Source of the DNA: Pyropia yezoensis
Taxonomy: Eukaryota > Rhodophyta > Bangiophyceae > Bangiales > Bangiaceae
Length of the DNA stretch: 64,000 bases
Direction of reading: 5' to 3'
Assembly: GCA_009829735.1 (NCBI GenBank)
Contig: CM020618.1
Coordinates: 15,482,568 to 15,546,567, forward strand
A program made the position numbers and the translations under genes. The notes beneath the pieces are model-generated. The model made no database searches. It had not been told where the DNA came from and saw only the letters and a program-made list of their open reading frames with translations. Shown piece by piece: positions 6,224 to 63,079 of the stretch (position 1 is the stretch's first letter; every line of letters starts with the position of its first letter).

Positions 6224-6224
<1 letters not shown>

Positions 6225-6254: not shown

Positions 6255-6260
<6 letters not shown>

Positions 6261-11258: not shown

Positions 11259-11260
11259 GT

Positions 11261-12354: not shown

Positions 12355-12671
12355 GTTGGTGGATCAGCGGGGGAGAGGATATCGACTTTGGTACCTCCCT
12401 TGACCGGAGACGGGACCAAGTTGGCCCCTCTCCCCCTTCGGCACCGAGACTTCCGGTGACACGATCGACTCGCCTACGTTCCGAGCGTTCGCTGGGCGAC
12501 GAGGTTGGCCACCGTGAGTCTTGGTGGGAGACCCGGAGTTTCGGGAAACCTCACCGCCTTCCTTGAGGCAGGTGGAGGGGTGGAACGTGCTCTAGGAACT
12601 CCCTAGCTGACGATCCCCGACTCTGGACACCGTTTGGTCGTTTTGGTTGACTCCACGTGACTCTTGTGGAG

Positions 12672-35125: not shown

Positions 35126-35594
35126 TGTGGCAAAAACCACAAGCACACACGGCACCCAAGTTGGGGCGGTGTGCCAGGGCTGCCTCCCGTGTCGGGGGAA
35201 CCGGAAGAAGTGCAAGTCGCACACACTCTGTCCCTGTTGTGGGGCAAACCCCCCACGGACAAACAAGAAGATGGTGTGTGGTCCAACAGTTTCTTGGTCG
35301 GGACGGGGACGCAGGGCCAAGCCCCGCTGTCCCTCCCCTTATCCCCCCAGGGTCCACTCAGAATCTCGCCACTCAGAATCTCCCACCCCAGCACCTGCCC
35401 ACCGGGCCACACGAAAATTCAAGACGATAAATGCAGAAAACCCTCAAATCCAAGTTGGATTTACTACTAAGCTAACTATCCCAAACTTAGGGAATATGGA
35501 CCCAAATGCAGGGGGAGGAACGGATCAGGCTAGTGGCCTGCCGCCCCTTGCATGGCACGTGTTGCCCCCCTACCTGGGGGTCAATACTGCCACA
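35126..35594 (-). repeat. 3' LTR of element D
   Basis: 469 bp, bounded by the short inverted ends TGTGGC and GCCACA. Confidence 0.95.
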
Positions 35595-35932
35595 CTCCCC
35601 TCTCCTCAGTTCCGACCGACCCGGTCGGCCCTGTGAGGGGGTGCGTAAACGCACGTCTCGACGTTGGGGGCGCGACTTGCTGTCCCCCATCGAGTACGTA
35701 ACACGGATGTGGAGGCGGTCACGTGGACCGCCCCTCTCCTCAAGCTTGCCCACTCGGCAGCTTGCTCTCCTCAGTTCACACTTCACCATCACCACCACCT
35801 CCCCTTCACCTTCCACTGGGCCGCCCCACGCTGGGGAGGCCACCCGTATACCCACGATCCGAGTCCCCCTCAACTCGAGGCGGGTCTCGTGCTGCGATAG
35901 CCAGAGCGTCTCTCCCCAACTTGGGGAGAGCC

Positions 35933-37891
35933 ATGGCGACTCCGGGAGTGGAGACGGACTCTCTTGACGAGCACATGGAGGACACCTCCTACGGTGCAGC
36001 ACCCGCCGGGACTTCCGGCGGGGGCTCCGCGATCGCTCCGGGGGATGGGATTCCCGCGTCACCCGGCTTTGGGTTGACGGCGGGATCTCCCCCGGAGGCG
36101 GGACAAGTTGTCCCGCGTGAGGCCTTGGGGCGGTGGTTTTACCCCGCTTGGCCTCTTTATGAGGAGGGGTTGACTGTTCTTCGCTGTGGCCGACTTGGCG
36201 CAGCGATGGGCCGGGTATGGGACCGCCTACGGGAGAAGTATCCCCGTAGGGTCGGGTTCCCGGCCGGCTTCAGGACGGACCAGTTTGCCTTCCTGGACGA
36301 CGAGGAGGTTGAAGACGTCCAACGTGCCAAGGCCATGGTGGACCGCGGGGGAACTATCCCGGGTCCCGGCGACTTGCCGACCTTCACGTGGGACGCTGTG
36401 GCAACTCGCCCACCGTACCTCCACGAGGCCGATCCGCACACTCATCACTTTGATGTGCGGATGGAGAAAGACTTCCGGCGAGGTCCCTACTTGGTGACCT
36501 CGGCTCAACTTGAGTTTCCTCAACAGTCTGCTGCCAGTAAGGAGCAGTACTATCCGAAGAAGCCCGAGTGGTGGCCTCAAGTTGAGGTCCCCTATGGGTT
36601 CCCGGCGTTGTTGCCCCGGTTGCTTGACCACTTCGGCTCCGTCATGTTGACGGCTGCCCCTGATCACCTGGTGTGGGCCATGTTGGCCACCCAGTGGCTC
36701 CTCGAGGTCATGTCGACCTGGGTGTCCTGTGTTCAGCGGCGGGGGATGCTCTGGCATCTCCCCCTCCGGCTCATCCAGGGTTTGGAACAGCTCACCCCTC
36801 AGCTAGTTGCTGAGGGGTGCTCATCAGGACAACTCACTCTACTTGAGGAGATGCTCCGGCTCCATAAGTTTATCGAGTGGGAGAGCATTGAGCACAAGTT
36901 GCGCCGCCCCACTCGTGGGCCCAAGGACGATGGCGCACTTCGCCAGTTCGTGTGGGTCGCTCGTGAACTTCACGACGGCCGTGTGGTCCTACGAGAGGGG
37001 TTGGGCATCGGGGACTACCCGTATGCCCCGGGGGTGGATCGCCACACTGCGCCACCCCCGGACAAGCCCATAGTTATGGCCGTGCCGTCCTATGATGACC
37101 ACATGACTCAACCCACTGCGGGAGCCCCAAGTCGGGGTCGCAGTTACACCCGGGTACCGCCACCTCGGCGGGCCCCTCCGCTTCCTCCTGTTCCTTTCCA
37201 ACCTCACGGGAACATCCCGATCAGCGTGGCCGTGGAGTCTTCCACCCCGGTGTCCCCCAACTTGGGGGCCACCCTCCTGACGGTATACCCCAAGTTGGTG
37301 TTGCCGCCCACGCCTCTAACCTCAGAGATGATAATCACCACGTTGGTGCGCACCATTTCCTGGTTGGCCGCGTCGACCGCAACCCTACAGAGTTCCGAGA
37401 CTCCTCAACTTGAGGAGCGCGTTCGTACTGCAGTAGCGACCGCGAGTTGCGAGTCGGTGGCGGAGTTTATGACAGCCGAGTTGGCTCGTATTGGGGCTAT
37501 TATGCCCCAGCCAGCCCCACTTGGGCGTGGCAAACGTCGCGCGAGCCGGGCATACTCGCCTCCTCGCCGTCGTCGCCGACACTCTCGGCGCTCTCCCTCC
37601 GTGTCGGAAGACGAGTTGTCTTACTCCGTCTCGGAGTCCTCTACCCCGTCGGAGACGGAGTCTGTCCAGCGTCTGCGTCGCAAACTTGCGCGCAAGACCA
37701 GGCAGAAGAGTGGCCACGGTCGGCGCCACTTGCGCGACCGTGAGGGGCGCGACCGTGAGGGGCGCGACGGTTCCGACTTGGAGCCGCCGCCCCCTCCAAC
37801 GAGTGGAGACCGTTATCGGCGTGGGTCTCGCCGCTCGCCTCCACGTGAGGGCGAGGGCCGTGGAGTGGGAGAGTCTAGCATGCGTGCCTAG
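35933..37891 (+). CDS. Antisense ORF of element D (conserved ORF3 family, function unknown)
   Basis: 652 residues on the strand opposite to gag-pol, lying between pol and the 3' LTR. ATG 35933 (MATPGVETDSLDEHMED) is supported by remnant E, which keeps the same start and diverges before it. The core has WPQVEVPYGFPALLPRLLDH then FGSVM, GMLWHLPLRL, RLHKFIEW and VVLREGLGIGDYPYAPGV, matching the A protein (VEVPCGFPA, YFGSVL, YLWHLPPAL, LHNRLDW, LFLREGLG…PYAEGV). The C-terminal 120 residues are Arg/Ser-rich (RRRRRHSRRSPSVSEDE; RDREGRDREGRD repeats), like RNA-binding or SR-type tails. No known domain is recognised. It is intact as it stands. Confidence 0.75.
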   Translation: MATPGVETDSLDEHMEDTSYGAAPAGTSGGGSAIAPGDGIPASPGFGLTAGSPPEAGQVVPREALGRWFYPAWPLYEEGLTVLRCGRLGAAMGRVWDRLREKYPRRVGFPAGFRTDQFAFLDDEEVEDVQRAKAMVDRGGTIPGPGDLPTFTWDAVATRPPYLHEADPHTHHFDVRMEKDFRRGPYLVTSAQLEFPQQSAASKEQYYPKKPEWWPQVEVPYGFPALLPRLLDHFGSVMLTAAPDHLVWAMLATQWLLEVMSTWVSCVQRRGMLWHLPLRLIQGLEQLTPQLVAEGCSSGQLTLLEEMLRLHKFIEWESIEHKLRRPTRGPKDDGALRQFVWVARELHDGRVVLREGLGIGDYPYAPGVDRHTAPPPDKPIVMAVPSYDDHMTQPTAGAPSRGRSYTRVPPPRRAPPLPPVPFQPHGNIPISVAVESSTPVSPNLGATLLTVYPKLVLPPTPLTSEMIITTLVRTISWLAASTATLQSSETPQLEERVRTAVATASCESVAEFMTAELARIGAIMPQPAPLGRGKRRASRAYSPPRRRRRHSRRSPSVSEDELSYSVSESSTPSETESVQRLRRKLARKTRQKSGHGRRHLRDREGRDREGRDGSDLEPPPPPTSGDRYRRGSRRSPPREGEGRGVGESSMRA

Positions 37892-38002: not shown

Positions 38003-41000
38003 TCACGTTGAGGGAGGGCTGTTAGGGTCTATCTCATTCCGGGCACAGTACGCCCGGACCTTCTCAGCAGGAAGGTCCTCCACATACTCCCATGTATCGT
38101 CCTTGGCTTTGTAGCCAAACCAACGCACCCTCAACATGAGGCGGTCAGTGTCTTCATCCCATCCGTGGTCGATGAACTTATCGAACACGTACTCCTGTGG
38201 GCCCTGTTTGGCCGCAGGCAGTGAGGGGAGGCGCCACGATTCCAACGCACGCGCCCAAGCTGGGTCGCCTGCAGGCGGTGGTGCAACTTTGACCACGTCC
38301 TGTCCGTTCACTGTGCGGACCCCATCGTCACTTTCGATGGTGAAGCGCCGCCCATCAGTACGAAGGACCTGGTACGGTCCCTTCGTCTGGAATACCAGCT
38401 TACCCCCAGTTGGGGTGTGCGAGTGTACCAGCACCCAGTCACCCTGCTCGGGGACATGTTTAGCATTGCGCACCTTTTTGTCAAAGGTACGCTTGTAGCG
38501 CTTTTGTGCTTTGTCCATCTCAGCCCTGACTTTAGGGATGAGGTTTTCAAGCCTAGCGGCGAACTCCGCCTTACTCTCAGTAGGAGTAGGCGTACTGCCA
38601 CCATCCTCCCTAGTTGGGAGCGACCGCCGCACGGCAATAGACCGCACGCGACGGGGGGTCACAAAAGCGAGGGGTACTTCCCCTGTAGATGAGTGAACCT
38701 GCGAATTGTAGGCAGTAGTAAGGATAGAAATATATTGGTCCCACGTCTTCACGTGCTCACTCACATAGTGGCGCAGCTGCCTAACAATAGTTTTGTTGAA
38801 GCGCTCCACCTGCCCATCAGTTTGTGGGTGGTAGGGGGTGGCATAGTTTGCCTTAACCCCCAACATATCCAGCACTCCCTGAAACAGTACAGACGCAAAT
38901 TGCGGTCCATTGTCCGATAGTGTACTATCTGGGATGCCATACGCGGCAACCCAGTGATCTAGGAAGGCTGACACGACCGACATGGCCGTGATCTCTGCCA
39001 GTGGGATCGCTCGCGTAAGTTTCGTGAAGCGGTCACAGATGACCAGGAGGTACTGGTTGCCCTCCTCGGTCACGGGCAGTGGCCCAAGGATGTCCATCGC
39101 CAACGCGGCGAAGGGCTCCTTGGCCGGGAACAATAGCATAGCCGTAGTAGGCCGCCGTTCCATCAGACGATTCTGTGCACAACTGGTGCAGGCAGCCACC
39201 CAACTGTAGATGTCCACCACCATGGACGGCCAGTAGTACCTGGTCCTCAGGGTCTGGTACAGTTTACTAGACCCCAGGTGTCCACCCGTTGGAGCGTTGT
39301 GCTCCCTCTCAAGGATACTGTCCTTGAGGGATGCGGGGACGACAAGTTGTTCGGTCCCCTGGAATACCCCCCTCCTCATGAGGAGGCCATCGTCTCCCAG
39401 AAAGAAGCGCGTCTCAACCACCGTATCCAGTATATCCCTCTGCGACTTGCAGAAGGGATCCTCGGCCTGGGCCTTCACCACCTCGTCCAGGGACAGGGGC
39501 AAGTACTTCTTGTTCCCTGGCGCCTCGGGGTTCAACGCCTGACCCGAGCGCGTGACTACCCCCACGATGGGGATGTCCTCATCGACTGGGTTAGTGTCCA
39601 GCCCCTCGGTAGGTACCCGAGAGAGGCCGTCGGCAAGGGCATGTTGCCTGCCAGGTCGGTACTCAATGTCAAAGTTGAAGGGTGCCAGTCGCACCCTCCA
39701 CCGGTTGAGACGAGTGTTCGTACAGTCCGTCTTGAAGATAAACTGCAACGCGCGGTGGTCACAGCGGATGAGGAACTTCTCACCCTCCAGGTAGTGACGA
39801 AGTGACGTCACCGCCCATACCACTGCGAGTCCTTCCAACTCGGTGACTCCGTAGTTCTTCTCGGCCGAGTTCAGCCCCTTACTGAAGTATCCCACCGGCA
39901 AGTACTCCTTGTCCGGCTGCTGCTGAAGCAACACACAACCAAGTTGGTCGTAACTAGCGTCCACATCCAGGATGTAGTGGACTCCCAACCTGGGAATTGC
40001 CAAGATGGGGGGCTTCAGCAGAAGGTCCCGAAGAGTCTCAAAGGATTCCTGCTCCACCCGACTTGGGGGAGGCAGGTTCTTCGGTAGCGTTGAGCTCACT
40101 AGCTCATTCAACGGCTTCGCCACCTTGGCGAAGCCCTTGGTGAAACGTCGGTACACGTTACACATCCCGAGGAAGCTCCTCATCTGGGTCTGGGTCCGGG
40201 GGTACTGAGCCTTACGAATGGCCCTCAAGTTCTTCTCGTTAACACTGAGACGCCCCGGACGGACAACATGTCCCAAGTATTCCACCTCTTGAGTAAAGAG
40301 GTGGCACTTACTCGCCTTCAGTGACACACCGGCGTCAGCAAGTAGCTTGAACACCTGGCCAAGATGGCCAATGTGTTCCTCCGGACTTCGGGAGAACACA
40401 ATGATGTCGTCTAGGTACACAAGGCAGATCTGCCACCGTACTCCGGCCAGAATCATGTCCATAGCGCGCTGGAAAGTTGCCGGCGCGTTACACAGACCAA
40501 ACGGTAGGCGCTTGCACTGGTAGGTACCACAGTGACAGGTAAAGGTAGTTTTATGCCTGTCCTCCGGGGCAATGGGAATTTGCCAGTACCCCGCGTTACA
40601 GTCCAGGGTAGAGAACACGTTTGCCTCCCCCAGAGAGTCCAGACAGTCATCCATCCTAGGTAGGGGATAACTGTCCTTCACCGTGCTCTCGTTGAGCTTA
40701 CGGTAGTCGATACAAAACCGGGGGGTCCCATCAACTTTGGGGACTATAACCACCGGACTCGCCCACTCGGCGTTGCTGGCCTCGATCACATCGAGGGCCT
40801 CCATGCGAGCAACTTGCTCCTTAACGAGGGCCCTTGAACGGGGTCCTCCCCTATACGGTTGTTGGCGTATAGGGGGTGCACCGGGCTTCAACTCGATCCG
40901 GTGTTGGGTGGCTCTCATGAGTCCCAATTGACCATCCCACAACTTGTGATATTGGTCCAAGAGGCGTTCAACTTGAACCCTCAACCTGGGGGGAACACCC

Positions 41001-41986
41001 TCCATGTTCACATGGAGCCGAGGAGAGGTGGCCGACTTGGCTTGATGCTTCTCCTTTCCGGACTTCGGGTCGCTACTTGCGCCCGCGTTGAGGGTGACCG
41101 CTACTACCGGTCCCTCATGTTGGTCGATATAGCCGAACTTGGCTCCCGACTTGAAGTACTTGGGCGTCGGACTCAGGTTCATCACCTGGATCCTCCACGG
41201 GACTCCGGCTTTGGAGTCCATCGTGCCAAGGGCAACATGCACTTGGTGCTTGCGAGCAAGACGGGGGTTAGGGTGCACCAACCCGTTCCCCGAAAAATCA
41301 GTTACAACGTCAACGTGCGCCACCGAGTTGGGGGGCAACGTGACTTTGCGGGCTAAACGCAGGGTAGCAGTAAACCCTTCCCTCACAGAGCAAACAGGCT
41401 TCGACTGTGAGACTGTCACAGGAGCCACAGACTTTCCCTTACCAAGGATGGGGATAGTCTCCCCATTCATCAACTTGACCCAGTACTCGGGGCCACAGAT
41501 CAAAGGCACTTGTGTTACGACATAAGGGGTACCCAGAAGCAGGGGTACCGATATATTCTCAACTACACCATAGGTCACGTCGACCTCATGGGTCCCCAAG
41601 CTAGTTGGTAGGGTCACGGCACCAACGATGGGAAGTACCCCACCATTGATGTCAATCATATGGTCAGCCTTGGACCTCCAGCGTTGGAGCTTCACCTCCT
41701 TTGGTAATAGCGACTTGCGTATCAAGGAGGCTCCTGACCGGGTATCAAGCACGATACGGGCACAACAGGCGCGGCCGGGGGCAAGTTGCACCCGTCCAGC
41801 CACCTGGAAGTTCTCACCCGTCAGCACCGCGATGACGCGACGTGGGTTTACGTTCTTGGGGAGTCCTACCCGAGGTGGGCGGACTCCCTTAGGTCGCCAC
41901 AGTATCCGGCACGGTTGGTTCGTCCTCCTGGCCCACTTGGCCGAGGCTGCCGTTGTCAGCTTCGGACGACCAGCCCCAACGGTCAT
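38003..41986 (-). CDS. Pol polyprotein of element D, with chromodomain-like end
   Basis: 1327 residues from ATG 41986, which overlaps the gag stop. Order by residue: protease-like segment near 80; reverse transcriptase about 390–570 (FCIDYRKLN near 422, VYLDDIIVF near 525); RNase H (LDVDASYDQLG near 670); integrase zinc-binding H-H-C-C about 895–945 and core about 965–1090 (MDILGPLPVT, LSDNGPQFAS, GQVERFNKTI); chromodomain-like segment about 1270–1315 (FDKFIDHGWDED, then LMLRVRWFGYKAKDDTWEY). Length and order fit Ty3/gypsy chromoviruses. It closely resembles the pol of element A and is less similar to B. It converges on the antisense ORF with 111 bp between the stops. Confidence 0.9.
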   Translation of the reverse strand: MTVGAGRPKLTTAASAKWARRTNQPCRILWRPKGVRPPRVGLPKNVNPRRVIAVLTGENFQVAGRVQLAPGRACCARIVLDTRSGASLIRKSLLPKEVKLQRWRSKADHMIDINGGVLPIVGAVTLPTSLGTHEVDVTYGVVENISVPLLLGTPYVVTQVPLICGPEYWVKLMNGETIPILGKGKSVAPVTVSQSKPVCSVREGFTATLRLARKVTLPPNSVAHVDVVTDFSGNGLVHPNPRLARKHQVHVALGTMDSKAGVPWRIQVMNLSPTPKYFKSGAKFGYIDQHEGPVVAVTLNAGASSDPKSGKEKHQAKSATSPRLHVNMEGVPPRLRVQVERLLDQYHKLWDGQLGLMRATQHRIELKPGAPPIRQQPYRGGPRSRALVKEQVARMEALDVIEASNAEWASPVVIVPKVDGTPRFCIDYRKLNESTVKDSYPLPRMDDCLDSLGEANVFSTLDCNAGYWQIPIAPEDRHKTTFTCHCGTYQCKRLPFGLCNAPATFQRAMDMILAGVRWQICLVYLDDIIVFSRSPEEHIGHLGQVFKLLADAGVSLKASKCHLFTQEVEYLGHVVRPGRLSVNEKNLRAIRKAQYPRTQTQMRSFLGMCNVYRRFTKGFAKVAKPLNELVSSTLPKNLPPPSRVEQESFETLRDLLLKPPILAIPRLGVHYILDVDASYDQLGCVLLQQQPDKEYLPVGYFSKGLNSAEKNYGVTELEGLAVVWAVTSLRHYLEGEKFLIRCDHRALQFIFKTDCTNTRLNRWRVRLAPFNFDIEYRPGRQHALADGLSRVPTEGLDTNPVDEDIPIVGVVTRSGQALNPEAPGNKKYLPLSLDEVVKAQAEDPFCKSQRDILDTVVETRFFLGDDGLLMRRGVFQGTEQLVVPASLKDSILEREHNAPTGGHLGSSKLYQTLRTRYYWPSMVVDIYSWVAACTSCAQNRLMERRPTTAMLLFPAKEPFAALAMDILGPLPVTEEGNQYLLVICDRFTKLTRAIPLAEITAMSVVSAFLDHWVAAYGIPDSTLSDNGPQFASVLFQGVLDMLGVKANYATPYHPQTDGQVERFNKTIVRQLRHYVSEHVKTWDQYISILTTAYNSQVHSSTGEVPLAFVTPRRVRSIAVRRSLPTREDGGSTPTPTESKAEFAARLENLIPKVRAEMDKAQKRYKRTFDKKVRNAKHVPEQGDWVLVHSHTPTGGKLVFQTKGPYQVLRTDGRRFTIESDDGVRTVNGQDVVKVAPPPAGDPAWARALESWRLPSLPAAKQGPQEYVFDKFIDHGWDEDTDRLMLRVRWFGYKAKDDTWEYVEDLPAEKVRAYCARNEIDPNSPPST

Positions 41987-44046: not shown

Positions 44047-44515
44047 TGTGGCAAGAACCACAAGCACACACGGCACCCAAGTTGGGGCGGTGTGCCAGGG
44101 CTGCCTCCCGTGTCGGGGGAACCGGAAGAAGTGCAAGTCGCACACACTCTGTCCCTGTTGTGGGGCAAACCCCCCACGGACAAACAAGAAGATGGTGTGT
44201 GGTCCAACAGTTTCTTGGTCGGGACGGGGACGCAGGGCCAAGCCCCGCTGTCCCTCCCCTTATCCCCCCAGGGTCCACTCAGAATCTCGCCACTCAGAAT
44301 CTCCCACCCCAGCACCTGCCCACCGGGCCACACGAAAATTCAAGACGATAAATGCAGAAAACCCTCAAATCCAAGTTGGATTTACTACTAAGCTAACTAT
44401 CCCAAACTTAGGGAATATGGACCCAAATGCAGGGGGAGGAACGGATCAGGCTAGTGGCCTGCCGCCCCTTGCATGGCACGTGTTGCCCCCCTACCTGGGG
44501 GTCAATACTGCCACA
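44047..44515 (-). repeat. 5' LTR of element D
   Basis: 469 bp, with about one difference from 35126–35594. The primer-binding site is adjacent at 44044. Confidence 0.95.
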
Positions 44516-44520
44516 CCCGC

Positions 44521-45129
44521 GAGTCAAGGAGTCAATCGCGAAGACCCGGGAGCGATACAAGCGGGACTACGACAAGGGTGTTCGGGAGAAGAACAAGGAG
44601 CTGGGTGGTGGCGACTGGGCTTTCGTGACATAGCAAGACCCGGGGGAAGCTGGACTCCAAGACGGACGGGCCCTATGAGATTCTGAGTACGGACGGCTGG
44701 ACATTTCTTCTAGACGTGGATGGCTCCCCGTACCGGGTGAGCAGCGACCACGTCACCCGAGCTCCACCGCCAAGCAAACGGGAGCTGACCCGGCGAAAGC
44801 GTGCCGCAGTACCCTGGTTATCCCAAGAAGAAGGCCGAGAGTATGTCTACGTTAAGTTCGTTGACCATGCCTGGAGAGACGGGCGCTTGTACCTGCGAGT
44901 ACGCTGGTTCGGTTTCAACCCGGCTGGTGATAGCTTGGAACCGTCCAACCGGTTGCTCATTGCGGATGTATGCGCCTACACGCGTCGGAACGGTATTGAA
45001 GGCACTCCAGTGGCCAGAGCCGGCAAGATCCTGGAATCGGACTCGGAGGATGACGAGAAGGAAGGAGCTGATGAAGACATGCGGGACGAGCCGAACTCAC
45101 CCGCAACAGACGCGGAACAAGAGGATTGA
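44521..45129 (+). pseudogene. pol end of element C, after the D insertion, chromodomain-like
   Basis: It begins directly after the CCCGC duplication with the segment expected next in pol. It contains a chromodomain-like stretch (YVKFVDHAWRDGRLYLRVRW, then FGFNPAGD) near 44840–44960 and an acidic end. Fossil. Confidence 0.7.
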
Positions 45130-45435: not shown

Positions 45436-46160
45436 CTCCTAGAGATACGCCTGCCGGTGCCATTGGAAGCTAGTGAAGGTCCTCGACCAACGCTGGGCCA
45501 AGCCATGCCGGGTCAGGGTTGCCAGAAGCTTTCCAACCACCGGACTGTCCGACATCTGGCCGCTATCCGCACAAGCAAACACCTGGTCGACCACGTCGTT
45601 CAAGACGCTGGCATATGTGCCCAGCACCAAGGAAGACCCGACGCCCCCGACCTGCACCGGAAGACGGCCCAGCTGGTCCTCGATCATGCCGACGTCGTAC
45701 TGGTCGCACGTCGGCCCCCCTTGGGTCAGGTACCAGTTGGGCACCCGAATGTGGGAAAGGCGCAGAGTCGGCGCCGGGATCTCGAACCGACCCGAGCTTG
45801 CCAGACCGGGACGGCTAGCAGCGGCGCCGGGAAACCGGAGTTCCCAACTCGATGGTGGGCACCGGGCCGCCACCTGGCGTAGGAGGCGCCCGAGGAGGAA
45901 CGGCCGGAGTGGTCGGCGACCGACCGACCGCCGCGGCCAATCCTGACTCTTGTACCGGCGGCTCAGTCGGCAAAAGATCAAGAGGGACCGGCGCAGGAAG
46001 ACCTCCCAGCTGCGGCCACGCCGGCAGCGGCGTCGCCAGCTGCACCTTGGCCGGAGAAGATTGGTAGACCACCTGCACCCAACCCGAGCCATCCCGACGC
46101 GGGCTGTTCTGGTCAGCGATCATGTTCAAGAAGCTCCGGTCATGCACCGGGGAATTGACG
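45436..46160 (-). pseudogene. Traces of the antisense ORF of element C
   Basis: Minus-strand reading gives protein-like segments: IPAPTLRLSHIRVPNWYLTQ, YASVLNDVVDQVFACADSGQ and LTRHGLAQRWSRTF. The last resembles the end of the B antisense protein (VDRRDIADRWSTEV), and the position just after the pol end matches the antisense ORFs of A, B and D. Fossil; not open throughout. Confidence 0.45.
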
Positions 46161-51867: not shown

Positions 51868-54237
51868 CTAGCGTTCCATATGGCCACCCCCACCACTATA
51901 GGGACCGCCCGACCACGAACCCCCAGGGTCGTAGGCCGGTAGCGGAGGGGCGTAACCCACTCGGGAGGGCCCCGGAGTGGAAGCACTGGGAGGGGCCCGC
52001 CGACTCGCGGACCCATCCCCGTCGTAAGATAGATGTCCGGAGGTACTCCCTCCGTGACGCGGAAGCTGCTGCTGAGTCGACAGCAGCCGTTGGACAAACT
52101 CGTGTCCAACCGCGAGGCGAGTGACCTCAGCTGCCAATGACTGTCGCGCCGTGGCTGAGTCGCCCGACGCGAGGAAGTGACTGACACGCCGGGTGACCCA
52201 AGCCAACGTGTCAAGGGAGGCCACGAGTGAGGCCTCCACCGTGGCGTCATACATGATGGCTCCCAAGTTGGGAAGCATCTCGCCAACGCCACGCGCAATC
52301 GGCATGGGTACCGGAGTTCGGACCCGTAGCGAACCCAACGCCACGTCGGGGAAGGGCTCGAGGAACTGGAAGGGTGGAGCCTGAGTCGGCTCCACACCCC
52401 CCGAGGTCGGAGTCGCGACCCGCGGGGAAGTCGTCGGCACAGCTCGCCCGCGGCTTCGAGGGGCTCCTCGATGAGCACCACGACGAGTCGTCGCCGATGA
52501 TGTCGCCCACCCAGAGCCAGGGGGCGACGTAGAGGGAGTAACCCCCTCTGCGTAGGGAAGGGAAGAGTCCCCCAACCCCTCACGCAAGAACAGCTGTCCC
52601 TGCACCAGAGTATGGGTGACATGGACGAACTCCCGGGGTGGCTCACTCTCCAACCCCGGCTCTGGACGCTTGTTGCGGCGGAGGAAGGGTTCCAGCTGCG
52701 CCCAATCGAGTCGATTGTGCAGGGTGACCATACCCTTAAGGAGGAACGGAGCCAGGTCCCCCGCGCCCAAGGCTAACCAGTGGAAGCCAAGGGTTTCCAT
52801 ACCCTCCACCAGAGCCGGTGGGAGGTGCCACAGGTAACCCTGATGGACTACATCGGAGTACCAGCCCCGAGTCACCACGACCACCCAGTGCGTGGCGAGG
52901 TAGGCGAAGACCCGGTTACCCTCCGAGCTGGAGCGTAGCACGGAGCCAAAGTAGGCAACGAGGAGGGGGATCCGAGCCGGAAACCCACAAGGTACCTCCA
53001 CTGTCTCCCACCACCCTGGGAGAAAAGGGTACTGGTGCTCACGCTCCTCCAGAGGTACGTGGGTGAACTCCACCCGCGACCCGTGGATGAGGAAGCCCGA
53101 GGAGCCCCGGAGTCGGAACTCCTCTCGCACCACGCCGTGTTGGGCGTGGGCGTCCTCTCCGCCCAGGTAGGGACGGGGAAGGGCACACCACTCGGTAGAC
53201 ACAACCGCGTGGGTGTCGTCGATCTCCTTGTCGCCCGACCCCAAGGCGAGGGAGGTTGACAACGCCTGGACTTCAGGCGCGTCCGCCAGGCAGAGTAGCG
53301 CTGGTAGGTCGCAGACCACCCCATCAGGTAGAGTCACCTGGTTGGGGTACCGACGAGTCCGGCGGTACCATACGTCGGTCCGCCGTGGCTCGGGGATGAT
53401 CAAGTAGACATCCTTGAGCTTGCAGTCGGGAAGCTCCCCGACTGACTTGGGAGGCGCCCAGGCTCGGGGCCCCATAGGAGAAAGGGGCAGCGCGGGGAAG
53501 ACACAACCCCGCCAACGAGGACAAAGGGGGGGGAACACGACCCGCTCCCCCTCCGACGACAACCAACCTTGACCGACTCGGTGAGGTAGAGCAAGGGGGG
53601 GGGACACGACCCACACCCCCCACCGACAACGAAGAAGCCCGACACAAGGGGCAGCGCGGGGAAGACACAACCCCGCCAACGAGGACAAAGGGGGGGGAAC
53701 ACGACCCGCGCCCCCACCGACAACGAAGACGCCCGACACAGGGGCGGAAGGGGGAAGACACCACCCCAACCAACGACACCAACCGCACGGCGGGAAGAGA
53801 CAGACCCGCCGACGCGAGGGAGCAGCGGCGGGAAGGCACACACCCGCCCGCACACACGAAGGGGAGAGAAGACCCCGCACCGGCGGCCGAGTCCCACCGC
53901 CGGCGACCGAGTGCAACACCCCCAACTCGGGGTGCGCACACCCCTCAACCCTGACTAGAAAGGGGGGGAAGGAGTGAGGAACACCCCGCAGAGAGCCAGC
54001 TGGGGGTGGATCGAGCTGAAGGGGGGACACAACCCGACCCCCCGAGAGCAACCGTACCCCAACTGAAGGGGCAGGTGCAGGTCGACGTTCCGAGTGAGAA
54101 CGTCGACGCCCTACTCCTCCAGTTGAGGGGCAGGGGGTGTGGCGGAGGTACGCCGACACCCAGATTAGGGGGCTCACCCACACGTGAGTCCACCCGTGGA
54201 GCACCCTGACCAGGTGGGGGACGACTTTCCCCCACAC
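51868..54237 (-). CDS. Antisense ORF region of A2 (conserved ORF3 family)
   Basis: A long open minus-strand frame converging on pol, 128 bp between stops. Its conserved part (ELPDCKLKDVYLIIPEP to the HMER end, about 51868–53470) is almost identical to A3. The upstream part runs through the minisatellite of 53480–53760 and differs from A3, so the true start here is uncertain. See the A3 entry for motifs. Confidence 0.6.
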   Translation of the reverse strand: MWGKVVPHLVRVLHGWTHVWVSPLIWVSAYLRHTPCPSTGGVGRRRSHSERRPAPAPSVGVRLLSGGRVVSPLQLDPPPAGSLRGVPHSFPPFLVRVEGCAHPELGVLHSVAGGGTRPPVRGLLSPSCVRAGVCLPAAAPSRRRVCLFPPCGWCRWLGWCLPPSAPVSGVFVVGGGAGRVPPPLSSLAGLCLPRAAPCVGLLRCRWGVWVVSPPLALPHRVGQGWLSSEGERVVFPPLCPRWRGCVFPALPLSPMGPRAWAPPKSVGELPDCKLKDVYLIIPEPRRTDVWYRRTRRYPNQVTLPDGVVCDLPALLCLADAPEVQALSTSLALGSGDKEIDDTHAVVSTEWCALPRPYLGGEDAHAQHGVVREEFRLRGSSGFLIHGSRVEFTHVPLEEREHQYPFLPGWWETVEVPCGFPARIPLLVAYFGSVLRSSSEGNRVFAYLATHWVVVVTRGWYSDVVHQGYLWHLPPALVEGMETLGFHWLALGAGDLAPFLLKGMVTLHNRLDWAQLEPFLRRNKRPEPGLESEPPREFVHVTHTLVQGQLFLREGLGDSSLPYAEGVTPSTSPPGSGWATSSATTRRGAHRGAPRSRGRAVPTTSPRVATPTSGGVEPTQAPPFQFLEPFPDVALGSLRVRTPVPMPIARGVGEMLPNLGAIMYDATVEASLVASLDTLAWVTRRVSHFLASGDSATARQSLAAEVTRLAVGHEFVQRLLSTQQQLPRHGGSTSGHLSYDGDGSASRRAPPSASTPGPSRVGYAPPLPAYDPGGSWSGGPYSGGGGHMER
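53480..53760 (-). repeat. Minisatellite upstream of the A2 antisense ORF
   Basis: A unit of about 160 bp (GGGGCAGCGCGGGGAAGACA, then GACAAAGGGGGGGG and CACGACCCGC) occurs about twice in tandem and contains a shorter sub-repeat CTCACCGAGTCGGTCAAGG (minus sense). The A3 counterpart has a different arrangement. Confidence 0.7.
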
Positions 54238-54490: not shown

Positions 54491-55029
54491 TGTGGGAGAT
54501 TGGGCCGGAATTCGGTACCAATACTTTGAAGATTCGGGTCAAGTGGACCTGACCGGAAGTCGAAATTCACCCGACCCACGATGGTGAAACTTCTGACTTC
54601 TGGACGGAAATTCGACTAGGACTTCCGACATACTAGAGCAGGGTAATGCTGCTGGTATTTGTTTCTTGGGATTTTTGCACGGGAGCCAGACGGATTTCTA
54701 CGCTTTGAGTTCTTTGCATGTGGAGTGATATGATTGGTTTGTTTGAGGGTTCATTTTCTGAGTGTTTTGAGGGGTTGCGTGAGCGTGTGAGGAGGGTTGA
54801 TAAGGAGGGACAGCAAGGCGGGGAGGGCCCACCTTGGCTGGCCAAGCAAGAAAACACCGTCTGGCTCCGACACATCTTGTTCGTGCCTTGGTGAGTGGAC
54901 CCGCTCACCACACGCAAGTTCCGTGTTCGGCTGTGTGGAGGTGCTTGCTTCCGGTGTCCCAAGTTGGGATATCGGCAATACTCCTCTTCCTTCCCTGACT
55001 CGGGGTTGGTGCTTGGGAGTACTGCTACA
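54491..55029 (+). repeat. A-family LTR shared by A2 (3') and A3 (5')
   Basis: 539 bp. Upstream lies the A2 polypurine tract; downstream lies the A3 leader and gag. A single LTR therefore serves two adjacent copies, with no target duplication between them. Confidence 0.9.
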
Positions 55030-55242
55030 ACACGATCGACTCGCCTACGTTCCGAGCGTTCGCTGGGCGACGAGGTTGGCCACCGTGAGTCTTGGTGGGA
55101 GACCCGGAGTTTCGGGAAACCTCACCGCCTTCCTTGAGGCAGGTGGAGGGGTGGAACGTGCTCTAGGAACTCCCTAGCTGACGATCCCCGACTCTGGACA
55201 CCGTTTGGTCGTTTTGGTTGACTCCACGTGACTCTTGTGGAG

Positions 55243-57006
55243 ATGGCTGGTGAGGGAGACCCCCCCATTGCGCCGAGTGTACCTGGGGAGGGGGAGCGTA
55301 GTCCTCCCCCGACGGGCGGAGTACCACCCAGGCCGGGCAGTGCGGATGTGGTGGGTCCAGAGGTTGGACCCCGACGGCGATCGGCCAGGTTCCTTCCCAG
55401 GCCGTCACCGGAAGAGACGGGCGGAGTTCGCCCTTCTCCGGTGGGAGCGCCGAGCCAGCGTCAGGCTCCGGCAACCTCTTCGGGGAGTGACGACACTCAC
55501 TTCGGCATGGGACCGCCGACCGGCAGAGGTGACGGGACAGGGAGTTCTGTACCCCGGGTTGGTGGGTCCGCGCCACGACTGGTGCCGGAAGGACCGGGTG
55601 GGAGCTCGAGTCAAGCTCCACCTGGATCATCCGGTATCGTGGATAACTCGGTGATGACTGCCATCGCACAAGTCGTGCGAGAGGAGGTGGGGAAGGCGTT
55701 GAAGGGGAGCACCCCTCCGCCTGAGCAGGCCTCGAGGCGTCAGAAGCGACGGGAGATTCGACGTACTCTCCGTCGTGAGGTGGACTCGGAGTCTGAGTCC
55801 TCTGCAAGTGGCAAGTCGGGTGAAGAAGATCCTACTCGACATGGTCGTGTGACTCACACGGACCGTCTTGGGACTAGAGTCGTCCCAGGAAAGATCGTGG
55901 TGAATAATCCATTGTTCAAGGATGTCTTCGACTGTGAGACATATGGGTTGGTCAACAAGTCGTTGACCTACTCAAATAGCCAGGCCCGTACCCTGGGCCG
56001 GCGCAAGAAACACGTTGCGCAATCCTTCGGGGTCCGTTCAGAATGGGACGGGACTCCACCCCTGAAGGTCTTCCAGTTTTTGCGGAAGTTCGCAAAAGCC
56101 TGCGATGACAATGATGTCTCTGAAGCTGAAGCGTTTTTCATGCTTCAGGACTTCACCAAGGAGCCACTCCGCTCCGAGGTGATGAACGTCATGCCAAGTC
56201 GGCATGGTGGGAATCCGGGTGAGGTGACCTCCTACCTGGAGTTGGTTAATTGGATCCTTCGTCTTCACGCAGACGAGGCTTCCTTGGCTGTGCAGGTTGA
56301 AGAGTTCAACCGCGCCACCCAGAGTAAGGGTGAAGAGGAACGGGAGTTCGCTGAACGACTCCGTCAGCTGAACGTCCTCTGTGGATTCCTATATCCCCAA
56401 GGAGTCATTAAGGGACGCTTTGTGGAGGGTGTCCACCGAGCAGCTCGAGCGACTGTGCGAGAGCGTAATACTCCGACCATGACTCTGGCGGAGTTGGCAC
56501 GCATCGCCCAGACTAAGGGTGATGAGTACCGCTGGCTCGTGTCTGAGCAGCGGAAGGAACGAGAGAAAGAAGTTAAGGGAATGGAAGCAAGTCGCTTCCG
56601 CAGAACTGCAAGGATGCCTTCCTACACGCGGACGTACCCTGCAGTACCTTCGTCCTCAACTCGAGAGACGGAAGGTATGGTGGCCGCCATCCCTGATAAG
56701 TCACAGGGAAAAGCGGGGCCATCGGCGTCGATGAGTGATCGGCCGTGTTGGCAGTGTTCCAAGTCGGGACACTGGGCAGCCCAATGCCCCACTCTGGACG
56801 TTCGTTTGAGAGCCCTGTTGGCTCGTATTGGGAAGCTCGGTATTCCGAGGACTGATTCGGATACCCGGCCACACACCACACGTGTGACGGCCATGACTCA
56901 ACCTAAGTCAGAGGATGAGTCCACGCTTGAGAAGGGGGAAACCTCTTCCCCCAGCTCAAGTGGCAAGGATACTCCATCATCCGAGTCGGATGAGGGAAAC
57001 GCCTAG
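55243..57006 (+). CDS. Gag protein of element A (copy A3)
   Basis: 587 residues from ATG 55243 (MAGEGDPPIAPSV), an intact frame as it stands; the frame is open a few codons further upstream without an ATG. Residues 1–170 are Pro/Gly/Ser-rich. An Arg/Glu-rich stretch (RRQKRREIRRTLRREVDSES) near 185 precedes the gag core (VFDCETYGLVNKS, EWDGTPPLKVFQFLRKF, TSYLELVNWILR, LNVLCGFLYPQ), a helical EQRKEREKEVKG stretch, the zinc knuckle CWQCSKSGHWAAQC (nt 56746–56787) and a Ser-rich acidic tail. It is a close relative of the D gag. It forms the particle shell and binds element RNA. Confidence 0.85.
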   Translation: MAGEGDPPIAPSVPGEGERSPPPTGGVPPRPGSADVVGPEVGPRRRSARFLPRPSPEETGGVRPSPVGAPSQRQAPATSSGSDDTHFGMGPPTGRGDGTGSSVPRVGGSAPRLVPEGPGGSSSQAPPGSSGIVDNSVMTAIAQVVREEVGKALKGSTPPPEQASRRQKRREIRRTLRREVDSESESSASGKSGEEDPTRHGRVTHTDRLGTRVVPGKIVVNNPLFKDVFDCETYGLVNKSLTYSNSQARTLGRRKKHVAQSFGVRSEWDGTPPLKVFQFLRKFAKACDDNDVSEAEAFFMLQDFTKEPLRSEVMNVMPSRHGGNPGEVTSYLELVNWILRLHADEASLAVQVEEFNRATQSKGEEEREFAERLRQLNVLCGFLYPQGVIKGRFVEGVHRAARATVRERNTPTMTLAELARIAQTKGDEYRWLVSEQRKEREKEVKGMEASRFRRTARMPSYTRTYPAVPSSSTRETEGMVAAIPDKSQGKAGPSASMSDRPCWQCSKSGHWAAQCPTLDVRLRALLARIGKLGIPRTDSDTRPHTTRVTAMTQPKSEDESTLEKGETSSPSSSGKDTPSSESDEGNA

Positions 57007-57044: not shown

Positions 57045-60000
57045 ATGAAGCGGGTTGCTTCACGCTCACTGACCCATGGGAGAGTGAAGGTCCTGACTCG
57101 ACCTCGAGGGGTGAGACCTAGGGACAAGGCCCCTCCTCAGAAACACGACCCGAGTCGGATTGTGTCAGTGCTGGTAGGGAGTAACTACCAGGTCGCAGCT
57201 CGACTCTGGCTGCAGGATGGATATGAGTTTACCTCTCGTGTCATAGTCGACACAGGCTCTGCTGCCTCTCTCATTAGGCAAGACTTATTGCCAGAGGGGA
57301 CAGATGTGAGCCCCGCCGGCTCACCCGAGTGGCGTATGTTTGATGTCAATGGGGGACTCCTCCCCATTGTTGGGTCTATTGCATTGACTGTTTGCATTGG
57401 GTTCTACCAGACGCAGGTGAACTTTGGAGTAGTCTCCAATATGTCAGTCCCCGTACTCCTGGGAACTGACTATCTGGACCTCCATGTCCCGGCCGTCTGT
57501 GGACCGGAAGGGATAATCCGAATGCGTAATGGAGAGACTGTCCCCATATTGCGTAAAGGGAGGACTGTTTCCCCTACGACTCATCAACCTAGGGAAAACT
57601 CTCCCAAGGGTGGAGGCTCTACGACCCATGTACGAGTATGTAAGGGTACGGTAGTCCCGCCCCGATCAAGGACCTTTGTGCGAGTACGCACACGGTTTCG
57701 AGGGAATGGACTTGTTTCCCCCGTGGACCGAGTCTATTATACTCACCAAGTGCAAGTTGCTTGGGGCCCCATGACTTGTGGGGATGACCAAACCTGGTGG
57801 GTGGAGGTCCTCAACACGTCGGAGGAACCTCGACGACTCCCCGGAGGCATGAAGATTGCGTCGATCTCTACCTTTGAGGGGAATGTCGTTGCTGTGACTT
57901 AACAGCAATGGAAGGATATTGGAATGGCAGGCTCTGCCGACCAATCGAGTTCATCGACGGCTAAGTCGCCGACGGTACATCGGGAGAACATCCCGGAGTG
58001 TTTACATGGACGACTGGATGAGTTAATCCAGAAGCATCACAAGTTGTGGAATGGTGACCTTGGGCTCATCAAGGCCACCGAACACAGAATCGTGTTGAAG
58101 CCAGGGGCTAGGCCAGTTCGCCTGAGTCCCTACCGTATGGGACCAGACTCACGGGAACTCACCCGAGAGCAGGTCCAACGGATGCAAGACATGGGTGTCA
58201 TTGAGCCTTGCTCAAGTGAGTGGGCCAGTCCCATAGTCTTGGTGCCCAAGTCAGACGGCACGATGCGGTTCTGCATCGATTATCGTAAGCTAAACGAGCG
58301 GACGGTAAGGGATAGTTACCCCTTACCCCGTATGGACGATTGCCTTGACTCACTCGGTGAGGCACAGTACTTTTCCACGTTGGACTGCAACGCGGGGTAC
58401 TGGCAGATACCCATCCGCAAGGAGGACAGACACTTGACCACCTTCACGTGTCACTGTGGAGTTTATCAGTGTACACGGCTCCCTTTTGGGCTTTGCAATG
58501 CACCTGCGACTTTCCAGCGTGCTATTGACTTGATACTTGCCGGAGTCAAGTGGCAGATCGCCCTGGTGTATCTGGACGATATCATTGTGTTCTCCGGGAC
58601 TGCCGAAGAACACTTGTCCCACTTGGACAGAGTGTTTACCCTGTTGGGTGAAGCAGGAGTAACACTCAAACCTACGAAGTGTCACCTCTTTAGTAATGAG
58701 GTGGAGTACCTCGGCCATATAGTCCGGCCAGGTCGCATTCTGGTCAATGAGAAGAACCTCATGGCCATCCGTCGGGCGAAGTTCCCCCAGACGCAGACAC
58801 AACTCAGGAGCTTCCTGGGTATGTGTAACGTATACAGACGCTTTGTGGCGAACTATGCCAAAGTGTCTGCACCGTTGAACCACTTGGTAAGTTCCAAGAT
58901 GCCCAAGCGCTTGGATGCTCCCAAACCCCCGGAGCAAGAAGCGTTTGATAGGTTGCGAGAGCTCCTCTGCAACCCACCGGTGTTAGCGATCCCGAGACCG
59001 GGGGCTCACTACATCGTTGATGTGGACGCAAGTTACGACCAACTCGGTTGTTGCTTACTCCAACAACAGCCTTCGGGGGAGTATTTACCCGTTGGCTATT
59101 TCAGTAAGGGACTCTCACCCGCCCAGAAGAACTATTCTGTGACGGAGGTAGAGGGTCTTGGCGTGGTATGGGCAGTCTCCATGCTACGGCCATACATCGA
59201 AGGAAGGAAGTTCCTCATTCGATGTGACCACAAGGCTTTGAAGTGGATACTCACCACTACAGCCTGTACGAATAACCGACTCAATCGATGGCGACTCTGC
59301 CTCGCTGAGTTCGATTATGATGTTGAATATCGGCCAGGCCCGAAGCATGCGGTTGCGGACGCGTTGTCTCGCATACCGACGGATGGGAAAGACACTTCCC
59401 CTATCCCTGAGGAACTCCCTCATGTGGCAGTGACCACTCGCTCCGGAACTGTCCTCGACCCGAGGATGCCTGGCATGGCCAAATTATTACCCGTGTCTTT
59501 GGATGAGTTTGTCCAGGCACAGGAGAGCGACAAACTTTGTCGACGACTCAGGAAGGAGCTCGACCAGGCTCAACCGACTCGGTTCTTCCTGAATGACAAC
59601 GGCATACTCTGCCGTAAGGGATATACCCAGGGGGACAAGCAAGTCGTCGTCCCCAAGGAGTTACGCAAGAGTATCCTCCAACGGGAGCACTCCTCACCGT
59701 TGGGTGGACACCCAGGGTCTACGAGGATGTATCAGACCCTACGTAAGAAGTACTATTGGCCATCACTCGTGGCTGATGTGTACGGATATGTAGCCGCATG
59801 CGCGACTTGCGCAAAGAATAGACTCATGGAGTCCCGGCAGACTTCTTCCATGAGACTCTTTCCTGCAACAGAGCCGTTTGCAGCGATAGCAGTGGACTTA
59901 CTCGGTCCACTACCACGAACACCTGAAGGATATGAGTACCTTCTGGTGATGTGTGATCGCTTCACTAAGCTCACACGGGTATCCCCACTCAAGGATATCA

Positions 60001-61034
60001 CAGCCGTGGACGTTCTGAGTGAGTTACTCGACGTCTGGGTTGCCAGTTATGGCATCCCCGACTCTATCCTTTCGGATAACGGACCACAGTTTGCGTCCGT
60101 CCTGTATCAGGGAGTCATGAAGATGTTGGGGGTGCAGACGAACTTCGCCACCCCTTACCATCCCCAGACTAATGGGCAGGTGGAACGATTCAACAGGACT
60201 CTAGTGCGCCAGTTGCGTCACTATGTCCATGACCATGTAGTCACATGGGCTCGTTATGCGTCACTACTCGTGACAGCATACAACTCCCAGGTACACAGTA
60301 GTACGGGAGAGGCACCGTTTGCCTTCGTCTGCCCCCGACGACTTCCGTCAGTAGCTGTGGAGCGTCTCACCCAGACTGAGGGTGAGACTTCGACTCAAAC
60401 ACCGAGTCAGGCGAAAGCCTCCCTACTCCAGAGACTGGAGGAGATGATACCCCTTGTCCGGGCTACTATGGAGAAGGCCCAAGCCCGTTACAAGAGGTAC
60501 TTCGATGTCCGAGTCAGACATCGTCGCGATCCGCTCCGAGTTGGAGATTGGATTTATGTTAACTCCCACGACAATAAGGGAGGGAAATTGGTCTTCAAGA
60601 CTCTGGGACCATATCACATCCTTAAAACGGATGGACGTCGGTTAACCATCGAGAGTGATGATGGTATCCGGACAATAAATGGGAATCACGCGACTCGCGC
60701 ACCCGAACCCCCAGAGGGAGATCCCGCTTGGGAAAGGGCTTTGCAAGCATGGAAAGTCCCATCCTTGCCGACCTCTTCCAATAAGCCATTGGAGGCGGTG
60801 TTCGACAAGTTTGTCGGGCACGGATATGATGAGTCGGGGCGACTCATGCTCCGAGTCAGGTGGTTCGGGTATGGACCAACTTCCGACACATGGGAGTTTG
60901 TAGAGGACCTACCAGTAGAGAAGGTCCGTAGATACTGCCAGACTGTGGGCATATCTATACGCCGACGTAGCACTCGTACGTCGGGGGATGAAGTCCCTGC
61001 TCCAAGTCAGAGCAGAGCGGCAAGCCAACCATGA
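57045..61034 (+). pseudogene. pol region of A3
   Basis: Protease (IVDTGSAASLI near 57245), reverse transcriptase (FCIDYRKLN near 58270; VYLDDIIVF near 58567), RNase H (VDVDASYDQLG near 59020), integrase zinc-binding part (HPGSTRMYQTLRKKYYWP near 59710) and core (VDLLGPLPRT, LSDNGPQFAS, GQVERFNRTL to about 60210), and a chromodomain-like end (FDKFVGHGYDESG, then LMLRVRWFGYGPTSDTWEF, 60800–60900). About one break. Confidence 0.88.
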
Positions 61035-61162: not shown

Positions 61163-63079
61163 CTAGCGTTCCATATGGCCACCCCCACCACTATAGGGAC
61201 CGCCCGACCACGAACCCCCAGGGTCGTAGGCCGGTAGCGGAGGGGCGTAACCCACTCGGGAGGGCCCCGGAGTGGAAGCACTGGGAGGGGCCCGCCGACT
61301 CGCGGACCCATCCCCGTCGTAAGATAGATGTCCGGAGGTACTCCCTCCGTGACGCGGAAGCTGCTGCTGAGTCGACAGCAGCCGTTGGACAAACTCGTGT
61401 CCAACCGCGAGGCGAGTGACCTCAGCTGCCAATGACTGTCGCGCCGTGGCTGAGTCGCCCGACGCGAGGAAGTGACTGACACGCCGGGTGACCCAAGCCA
61501 ACGTGTCAAGGGAGGCCACGAGTGAGGCCTCCACCGTGGCGTCATACATGATGGCTCCCAAGTTGGGAAGCATCTCGCCAACGCCACGCGCAATCGGCAT
61601 GGGTACCGGAGTTCGGACCCGTAGCGAACCCAACGCCACGTCGGGGAAGGGCTCGAGGAACTGGAAGGGTGGAGCCTGAGTCGGCTCCACACCCCCCGAG
61701 GTCGGAGTCGCGACCCGCGGGGAAGTCGTCGGCACAGCTCGCCCGCGGCTTCGAGGGGCTCCTCGATGAGCACCACGACGAGTCGTCGCCGATGATGTCG
61801 CCCACCCAGAGCCAGGGGGCGACGTAGAGGGAGTAACCCCCTCTGCGTAGGGAAGGGAAGAGTCCCCCAACCCCTCACGCAAGAACAGCTGTCCCTGCAC
61901 CAGAGTATGGGTGACATGGACGAACTCCCGGGGTGGCTCACTCTCCAACCCCGGCTCTGGACGCTTGTTGCGGCGGAGGAAGGGTTCCAGCTGCGCCCAA
62001 TCGAGTCGATTGTGCAGGGTGACCATACCCTTAAGGAGGAACGGAGCCAGGTCCCCCGCGCCCAAGGCTAACCAGTGGAAGCCAAGGGTTTCCATACCCT
62101 CCACCAGAGCCGGTGGGAGGTGCCACAGGTAACCCCGATGGACTACATCGGAGTACCAGCCCCGAGTCACCACGACCACCCAGTGCGTGGCGAGGTAGGC
62201 GAAGACCCGGTTACCCTCCGAGCTGGAGCGTAGCACGGAGCCAAAGTAGGCAACGAGGAGGGGGATCCGAGCCGGAAACCCACAAGGTACCTCCACTGTC
62301 TCCCACCACCCTGGGAGAAAAGGGTACTGGTGCTCACGCTCCTCCAGAGGTACGTGGGTGAACTCCACCCGCGACCCGTGGATGAGGAAGCCCGAGGAGC
62401 CCCGGAGTCGGAACTCCTCTCGCACCACGCCGTGTTGGGCGTGGGCGTCCTCTCCGCCCAGGTAGGGACGGGGAAGGGCACACCACTCGGTAGACACAAC
62501 CGCGTGGGTGTCGTCGATCTCCTTGTCGCCCGACCCCAAGGCGAGGGAGGTTGACAACGCCTGGACTTCAGGCGCGTCCGCCAGGCAGAGTAGCGCTGGT
62601 AGGTCGCAGACCACCCCATCAGGTAGAGTCACCTGGTTGGGGTACCGACGAGTCCGGCGGTACCATACGTCGGTCCGCCGTGGCTCGGGGATGATCAAGT
62701 AGACATCCTTGAGCTTGCAGTCGGGAAGCTCCCCGACTGACTTGGGAGGCGCCCAGGCTCGGGGCCCCATAGGAGGACGGGGCCGCGGCGGGAGTAGCAG
62801 CCGTGACTCAGGAAGGCGGGGGATGGGAGTCACATCCCCTTCCGCCACCGGGTTGGAAGACCCATCCCCCGGTGGGACCACGGCCGAGGGGGCAGTAGGA
62901 GGTGATGGGGCGGGGACGGTTGAGGCGGCCGCCTCCGACCCTCGCCCGGGACGAGTCGTCTCCATGGCCGACCCCCGGCTGAGAGACTCCTCAGTCCCGA
63001 GGGCCTCCTCTCCCGTCCGTCGCTTGTCCGACAGAGACGTCGGAGACGGGGACAAAGGCCGACTCGGCTCACCCGCCAT
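61163..63079 (-). CDS. Antisense ORF of element A (copy A3; conserved ORF3 family, function unknown)
   Basis: 638 residues from ATG 63079 (MAGEPSRPLSPSPTSLSDKR), chosen because it follows the G-rich repeat zone; the open frame continues to 63655 but that part reads as Val/Pro/Gly-rich repeat translation. A Ser/Pro-rich N-terminus (about 105 residues) leads to a folded-looking core: ELPDCKLKDVYLIIPEPRRT, WWETVEVPCGFPARIPLLVA then YFGSVL, YLWHLPPALVEGMETLG, LHNRLDW, LFLREGLGDSSLPYAEGV, then a Ser/Gly-rich tail. The middle block aligns by eye with the D and B antisense proteins. No known domain is recognised. It converges on pol with 128 bp between stops. It is intact as it stands. Confidence 0.75.
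   Translation of the reverse strand: MAGEPSRPLSPSPTSLSDKRRTGEEALGTEESLSRGSAMETTRPGRGSEAAASTVPAPSPPTAPSAVVPPGDGSSNPVAEGDVTPIPRLPESRLLLPPRPRPPMGPRAWAPPKSVGELPDCKLKDVYLIIPEPRRTDVWYRRTRRYPNQVTLPDGVVCDLPALLCLADAPEVQALSTSLALGSGDKEIDDTHAVVSTEWCALPRPYLGGEDAHAQHGVVREEFRLRGSSGFLIHGSRVEFTHVPLEEREHQYPFLPGWWETVEVPCGFPARIPLLVAYFGSVLRSSSEGNRVFAYLATHWVVVVTRGWYSDVVHRGYLWHLPPALVEGMETLGFHWLALGAGDLAPFLLKGMVTLHNRLDWAQLEPFLRRNKRPEPGLESEPPREFVHVTHTLVQGQLFLREGLGDSSLPYAEGVTPSTSPPGSGWATSSATTRRGAHRGAPRSRGRAVPTTSPRVATPTSGGVEPTQAPPFQFLEPFPDVALGSLRVRTPVPMPIARGVGEMLPNLGAIMYDATVEASLVASLDTLAWVTRRVSHFLASGDSATARQSLAAEVTRLAVGHEFVQRLLSTQQQLPRHGGSTSGHLSYDGDGSASRRAPPSASTPGPSRVGYAPPLPAYDPGGSWSGGPYSGGGGHMER

Follow-up and report, generated by a model that had tools for sequence, protein, structure and literature searches.

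A conserved antisense open reading frame beyond pol in one clade of Ty3/gypsy elements of the red alga Pyropia yezoensis

Extra genes lying antisense to gag and pol in LTR elements have already been described and are still unexplained. The closest described case is the TRP28 ORF (PF04195, Transposase_28) of the plant Retand/Tat Ty3/gypsy elements, which is antisense, lies between pol and the 3′ LTR and, in the sections of the two accounts drawn on here, is kept throughout the Retand lineage, recently active copies included, with a nuclear or DNA-binding role suggested for its product (PMC11963269; PMC7264820). According to the cited part of the first of these accounts, TRP28 is apparently confined to flowering plants, Retand is termed a non-chromovirus and the conserved residues of the domain are G21, P25, L34, P46, N47 and F55 (PMC11963269). 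Two further systems are relevant. The antisense genes of HTLV, of the HBZ type, encode an accessory protein and are driven from the 3′ LTR by an antisense promoter, as relayed in excerpts of the same two accounts (PMC11963269, PMC7264820). The envelope-like ORFs of plant LTR elements also lie between pol and the 3′ LTR; they are described, in the section cited, as running in the sense direction and carrying transmembrane segments (PMC7264820).

The window analysed here, a stretch of 64,000 nucleotides of the Pyropia yezoensis genome, is a nest of Ty3/gypsy LTR elements, recognised by the order RT, RNase H, integrase and by flanking LTRs. In three of them (A3, B and D) pol carries all three domains and a long frame, referred to as ORF3, follows beyond it on the opposite strand. 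An earlier sequence-only reading had described these frames as antisense, converging on pol and followed by the 3′ LTR, and re-reading of the ATGs and stops confirmed both the coordinates and the arrangement. In A3 a gag frame (55228–57006, plus strand), with a zf-CCHC zinc-knuckle scoring 20.0 bits, just under the cut-off of 20.8, is followed by pol (57924–61034, plus), which ends in a weak chromodomain-like tail, and by ORF3 (61163–63079, minus), which runs from the ATG at 63079 to the stop at 61163, encodes 638 aa and is open to a TTG at 63655. The 5′ LTR of A3 (54491–55029, plus), directly preceded by a purine-rich tract, is also the 3′ LTR of the neighbouring copy A2, the two elements lying head to tail with this single LTR between them; the 3′ LTR of A3 starts at about 64083, just beyond the window and behind a purine-rich tract, as read in the copy L044. 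The ORF3 of A2 (51868–54237, minus) is without the approximately 0.3 kb that hold the ATG of A3. In D, which is inverted, pol with its chromodomain-like tail spans 38003–41986 (minus) and ORF3 35933–37891 (plus; 652 aa from the ATG, open from a GTG at 35723, with an arginine-rich tail), whereas in B pol spans 20812–24978 (plus) and ORF3 25460–27907 (minus; ATG at 27907, stop at 25460, 815 aa, open from a GTG at 28162, with an acidic N-terminus). The stops of pol and ORF3 are separated by 128 bp in A3, 481 bp in B and 111 bp in D. Beyond ORF3 lies the 3′ LTR, at 35126–35595 (minus) in D and at 28495–28857 (plus) in B, 99.8% and 98.9% identical to the respective 5′ LTRs at 44047–44516 and 18032–18396. 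In addition, a piece of ORF3 from D′, a family resembling D, lies at 28932–29339 (plus), with 65% amino-acid identity to D, and a possible decayed remnant at 45442–46119 (minus) occupies the usual ORF3 place and direction in a further element, E, its match (E-value 4.7) not being significant alone.

A long frame of this kind could be an accident of GC-rich sequence or the shadow of a constraint acting on the sense strand, and the ORF3 region does have a GC content of 63–66%. Its length, however, exceeds that of all shuffles: in 1000 dinucleotide shuffles of each pol–LTR region none reached the longest observed ATG frame, the shuffle maximum being 568 aa in A (observed, 638), 411 in D (652) and 384 in B (815). 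Moreover, the longest sense ATG frames of the same stretches measure only 113 aa in A, 176 in D and 341 in B, and no conserved sense-strand protein was seen opposite ORF3 in any of the three elements.

Substitutions among natural copies point in the same direction. The pN/pS ratio in the ORF3 frame is 0.34 for A (30 distinct copies), 0.31 for D (9 copies) and 0.45 for B (20 distinct copies), against 1.06–1.73 in four of the remaining frames. The one further frame, with which ORF3 has wobble positions in common, is also low (0.40–0.58), as a shadow would have it, and among D variants present in two or more copies it gives 0.34 against 0.38 for ORF3. The window copy entered the A set a second time (as L044), and likewise the B set (as L028), which may inflate the tallies of variants found in several copies. 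Selection of the copies relied on a protein match, taking the first 30 of 69 matches for A, the first 8 of the best 150 for D and the first 20 of the best 150 for B. This disfavours amino-acid changes and stops, and the complete lack of stop variants in the frame of ORF3 is partly due to it. Outside the stretch used to pick the copies, pN/pS is 0.37 for D and 0.64 for B, the latter being a weak estimate. More diverged pairs give similar figures. Specifically, A and L064, the most diverged copy fetched, differ with a dN/dS of 0.23 (control frames 0.99–2.58, wobble-sharing frame 0.41), and D and D′ with a dN/dS of 0.34 over 136 codons (control frames 1.15–1.56, wobble-sharing frame 0.51); D and D′ were also aligned in a different frame, with a dN/dS of 0.65, and that alignment was set aside. 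Over six fetched copies the comparison with A yields 0.23, 0.42, 0.35, 0.33, 0.48 and 0.78, the final two values resting on few changes (18 and 12).

By these substitution patterns, the ORF3 copies are shown to be under purifying selection, and the frame is best read as coding for a selected protein. The sequence-only reading had proposed precisely a conserved and selected antisense protein family, open to challenge by neutral dN/dS, by a shadow of overlapping sequence or by a lack of homologues beyond the copies at hand. The ratios obtained are not neutral, the comparison of frames does not support a shadow, with the wobble-sharing frame alone giving similarly low values, and homologues were found both in other families and outside this genome, as described below. 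With protein homology spanning five families, we regard a compositional accident or a shadow as very improbable.

The ORF3 proteins of A, B and D are homologous as judged from their alignments, B being a remote relative. In particular, the A and D proteins share 37% identity over 288 aa (BLASTP, E-value 2e-45), and the A protein likewise proved homologous to the sequences P0001–P0009, while B is matched by BLASTP at an E-value of 9e-10 from D and 1e-6 from A. Default blastp gave no match between A and B, nor did hmmsearch at default settings recover B from a profile built without it; with the filters off, the same profile retrieved B at an E-value of 2.9e-6, ranked directly behind the frames of A and D and the D′ piece, the following piece being at 0.5. 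Local alignments to B scored 13.6 SD (A) and 18.3 SD (D) above 500 shuffles, whereas three control pieces of gag and pol scored 0.2, −1.1 and −0.8 SD. The motifs noted by the sequence-only reading are present as described, except for LHxxxxW, which fails in B, where the spot reads VHDAVNW.

Ten homologues lie outside the genome of the window, namely four from Pyropia vietnamensis, five from ENA or 'lgn' contigs and one from a JGI metagenome, and a restriction of ORF3 to red algae would be a tentative conclusion. Among viral contigs 14 pattern matches were obtained, and among contigs of prokaryote genomes 40, none of which was confirmed as an ORF3 homologue. No Pfam domain was detected in the ten outside homologues, nor any Pfam match in ORF3 of A, B and D or in the cores of two further families, F and G, which bears out the earlier impression that no catalogued family carries these motifs. 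No similar solved structure was found in the PDB at an E-value of 10 or less, and no published account of the family was found in the literature searched, which lies mostly outside the subscription journals.

The generality of ORF3 was probed by reading stretches downstream of RT genes beyond the window. In one of these, L070 (family F), an antisense frame matches the ORF3 profile with an E-value of 8.1e-6 (0.0016 when B is left out of the profile), and its core scores 15.5 SD above shuffles for D and 7.8 for A; against B it gives no match (−0.4 SD), and F's C-terminal piece shows no significant similarity to A, D or B. The F copy read here carries a frameshift, but others are open. A genome search with the F core returned 148 matches from the best 150 of 1164 candidates, of which 67 belong to F, 2 to G (E-value 1.1e-6) and 79 show 24–27% identity, these last including at least one D copy. 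Among the matches listed, 13 of the 67 F and both G matches have an RT no more than 9 kb away, and all 15 are antisense to it and on its 3′ side. In the 13 F copies ORF3 and RT are on opposite strands and 3417–3439 bp apart, and in G the pol frame and ORF3 converge with approximately 160 bp between their ends. For F and G the placement is defined relative to RT, as antisense and on its 3′ side. From the RT side, in a comparison that used 150 RT matches, 15 of the 27 RTs of that class are paired with an ORF3 among the matches listed, and 12 are without.

Some observations were made alongside this survey. The G pol, assembled from L075 and L069, has an extra domain past its chromodomain-like tail, with a weak match to a Dam methyltransferase (PF05869, E-value 0.0059, below the cut-off), a domain which presumably resembles the region after RT in DIRS elements. 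L068, the single informative downstream stretch of the second clade, gave no ORF3 match; downstream of its RT an antisense frame of 406 aa occurs that bears no similarity to ORF3 and may be due to chance in GC-rich DNA. L067 was considered as evidence on its RT family and was discarded, since it turned out to consist of 5′ ends belonging to D and B elements and thus says nothing on that family.

The elements that carry ORF3 are themselves related. In a tree of 13 pol pieces, from which L006 was excluded, A, B, D, E, F and G separate with full support from seven other Ty3-like pieces, with supports of 98/98 for A+D, 100/100 for F+G and 93/97 for B+(F,G). The grouping of the carriers alone (A, B, D, F and G) reaches only 74/76, since E, represented by a third of the columns and with an ORF3 that is at best a remnant, is unplaced. 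On the pol phylogeny, A, B, D, F and G therefore fall in one Ty3/gypsy clade, and the simplest history is a single gain of ORF3 in the ancestor of this first clade. The pol proteins of the five families are 44–66% identical (A–D 66%, A–B 45%), and gag identity is 50% between A and D, over part of its length, and 24.5% between D and B (E-value 2e-15). Consequently, the conservation across unrelated elements that had been put forward does not hold, as it overstates the divergence of A, B and D. ORF3 nonetheless diverges faster than pol, the A–D identities being 37% and 66%. The end of the integrase scores 22.6 bits in D (E-value 1e-4), 19.2 in A and 13.3 in B against the Chromo profile, all under the cut-off of 25.1; the F and G tails were called chromodomain-like by eye.

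How, then, does ORF3 compare with the plant Retand gene? The comparison with the Tat lineages made by the sequence-only reading is apt in position and orientation, as described in the cited sections (PMC11963269): in both cases an extra gene, antisense to gag-pol, occupies the interval between pol and the 3′ LTR, the LTR having been read for A, B and D. It does not extend to the protein. PF04195 was detected in none of the ten ORF3 members, in neither the F nor the G core and nowhere in the genome, in searches run with the HMMER filters on and no true-positive control; the host is a red alga; and the integrase tails are chromodomain-like, albeit below the cut-off, which would set these elements apart from the non-chromovirus Retand. 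ORF3 might still be a distant TRP28 member, by common ancestry or by transfer between lineages. The identical place and orientation would fit, and the ORF3 core has a G-P followed by an LL..FG block, judged by eye; on the other hand, A does not keep the P-N position and, together with the missing domain match and the tails, this makes such kinship unlikely. Hence, ORF3 resembles the Retand ORF in arrangement and is not filed in the TRP28 family.

The ORF3 protein has a recurrent layout, with a variable N-terminus, a core followed in D, F and G by a stretch rich in arginine, and C-terminal helices, the last being a low-confidence prediction. The first 50 residues have a net charge of −12 in B, −7 in D and −1 in A. 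The core, without strong net charge, is made of a W-rich block followed by FGS, G-L-W/F-HLP and H....W blocks, and after it arginine reaches 15–19% in D, F and G. Two AlphaFold2 models are mostly helical and of low confidence (mean pLDDT 33.8 and 46.1). No membrane segment is predicted in the 10 sequences scanned, whose hydropathy maxima are 1.05–1.57, none above 1.6, and an envelope-like protein was rejected on this basis; ORF3 thus shares with the envelope-like plant ORFs its site between pol and the 3′ LTR, and differs in being antisense and in having no predicted transmembrane segment. The idea of an RS domain, as in SR-like proteins, was also dropped, RS/SR dipeptides being at or below the level expected from composition in A, D, B and P0003; they are slightly above it in P0008, F and G.

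A possibility, which we favour while holding it tentatively and at somewhat less than even confidence, is that ORF3 is an accessory protein gene, antisense to gag-pol, whose product is a nuclear regulator of the element in one Ty3/gypsy clade. Transcription of the antisense mRNA would start at a promoter close to the 3′ LTR, and the protein would act in the nucleus, where it may regulate the RNA or DNA of its own element at the level of expression, export, integration or escape from silencing. By analogy, this would parallel the supposed role of the antisense proteins of plant Retand and of HTLV; with the HBZ type, ORF3 is alike as an antisense accessory gene, the comparison being one of arrangement alone and the ORF3 antisense promoter hypothetical. 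An acidic start (B and D), a core and an arginine-rich tail (D, F and G) are compatible with a modular nuclear protein, a fit and not a proof. Counting against the reading are the N-terminus of A, which is not acidic, the weak net charge of the core, the RS/SR counts, the missing match between the F core and B, the C-terminal piece of F and the weak selection estimate for B outside the stretch used to pick copies.

Two other functions can be envisaged. ORF3 could be a structural protein or a component of the particle, such as a second gag-like protein or one associated with the capsid, or have some other cytoplasmic function, translated from an antisense RNA. The mostly helical, low-confidence prediction would suit such a protein, and so would the A–D identity of ORF3, which is nearer to that of gag than to that of pol; but neither a Pfam gag domain nor a PDB structure is matched, A already has a separate gag frame with its sub-cut-off zinc-knuckle, and an antisense structural gene needs a transcript of its own timed with gag, so that this reading appears rather doubtful. 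Alternatively, the antisense RNA itself might matter, with the protein secondary, by forming dsRNA with the genomic RNA and thereby tuning silencing or copy number, a form of control that is discussed for other elements in the section cited (PMC7264820). Selection, however, follows the amino-acid frame and the long frames stay open across families, a frame-specific constraint that already strains an RNA-based explanation and leaves it with a low probability. Under the nuclear-regulator reading, ORF3 would possibly be the founding member of a class of antisense accessory regulators that originated independently of TRP28, in Ty3/gypsy elements of chromodomain type and outside flowering plants, a suggestion that is slightly more tentative than the reading on which it builds. 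If true, two distant retroelement lineages would have reached the same converging antisense gene before the 3′ LTR, and such a gene would be a strategy of general use and not a peculiarity of plants.

The red-algal ORF3, whose near-identical copies number in the hundreds and which occurs in several diverged families, offers a second system in which to study the function of such genes, and allows testing whether the antisense arrangement is convergent. At least 150 matches at 99–100% identity, at the scoring ceiling, were obtained both for D (the best 150 of 2625 candidates) and for B (the best 150 of 2258), whereas the A-type search gave 69, of which 60 have no in-frame stop, the 30 A copies fetched being at least 95% identical to A. 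These near-identical copies, together with the LTR pairs at 98.9–99.8% identity, indicate a recent amplification in which ORF3 was kept. LTR elements are reported, in the part of the source cited, to account for genome growth in Pyropia (PMC7423979), and a regulator of theirs would therefore bear on genome size in this crop.

Finally, the window holds features that lie apart from ORF3. Upstream of the element A1, positions 10718–12637 contain a direct repeat of approximately 825 bp that includes A-type LTR sequence. At 4386–6884, in very GC-rich, triplet-like sequence, long frames overlap on both strands and are probably an effect of composition. An E-type pol end with a chromodomain-like tail resumes at 44716–45129 after the D insertion, and this continuation of E-type pol past D indicates that D is nested in E.
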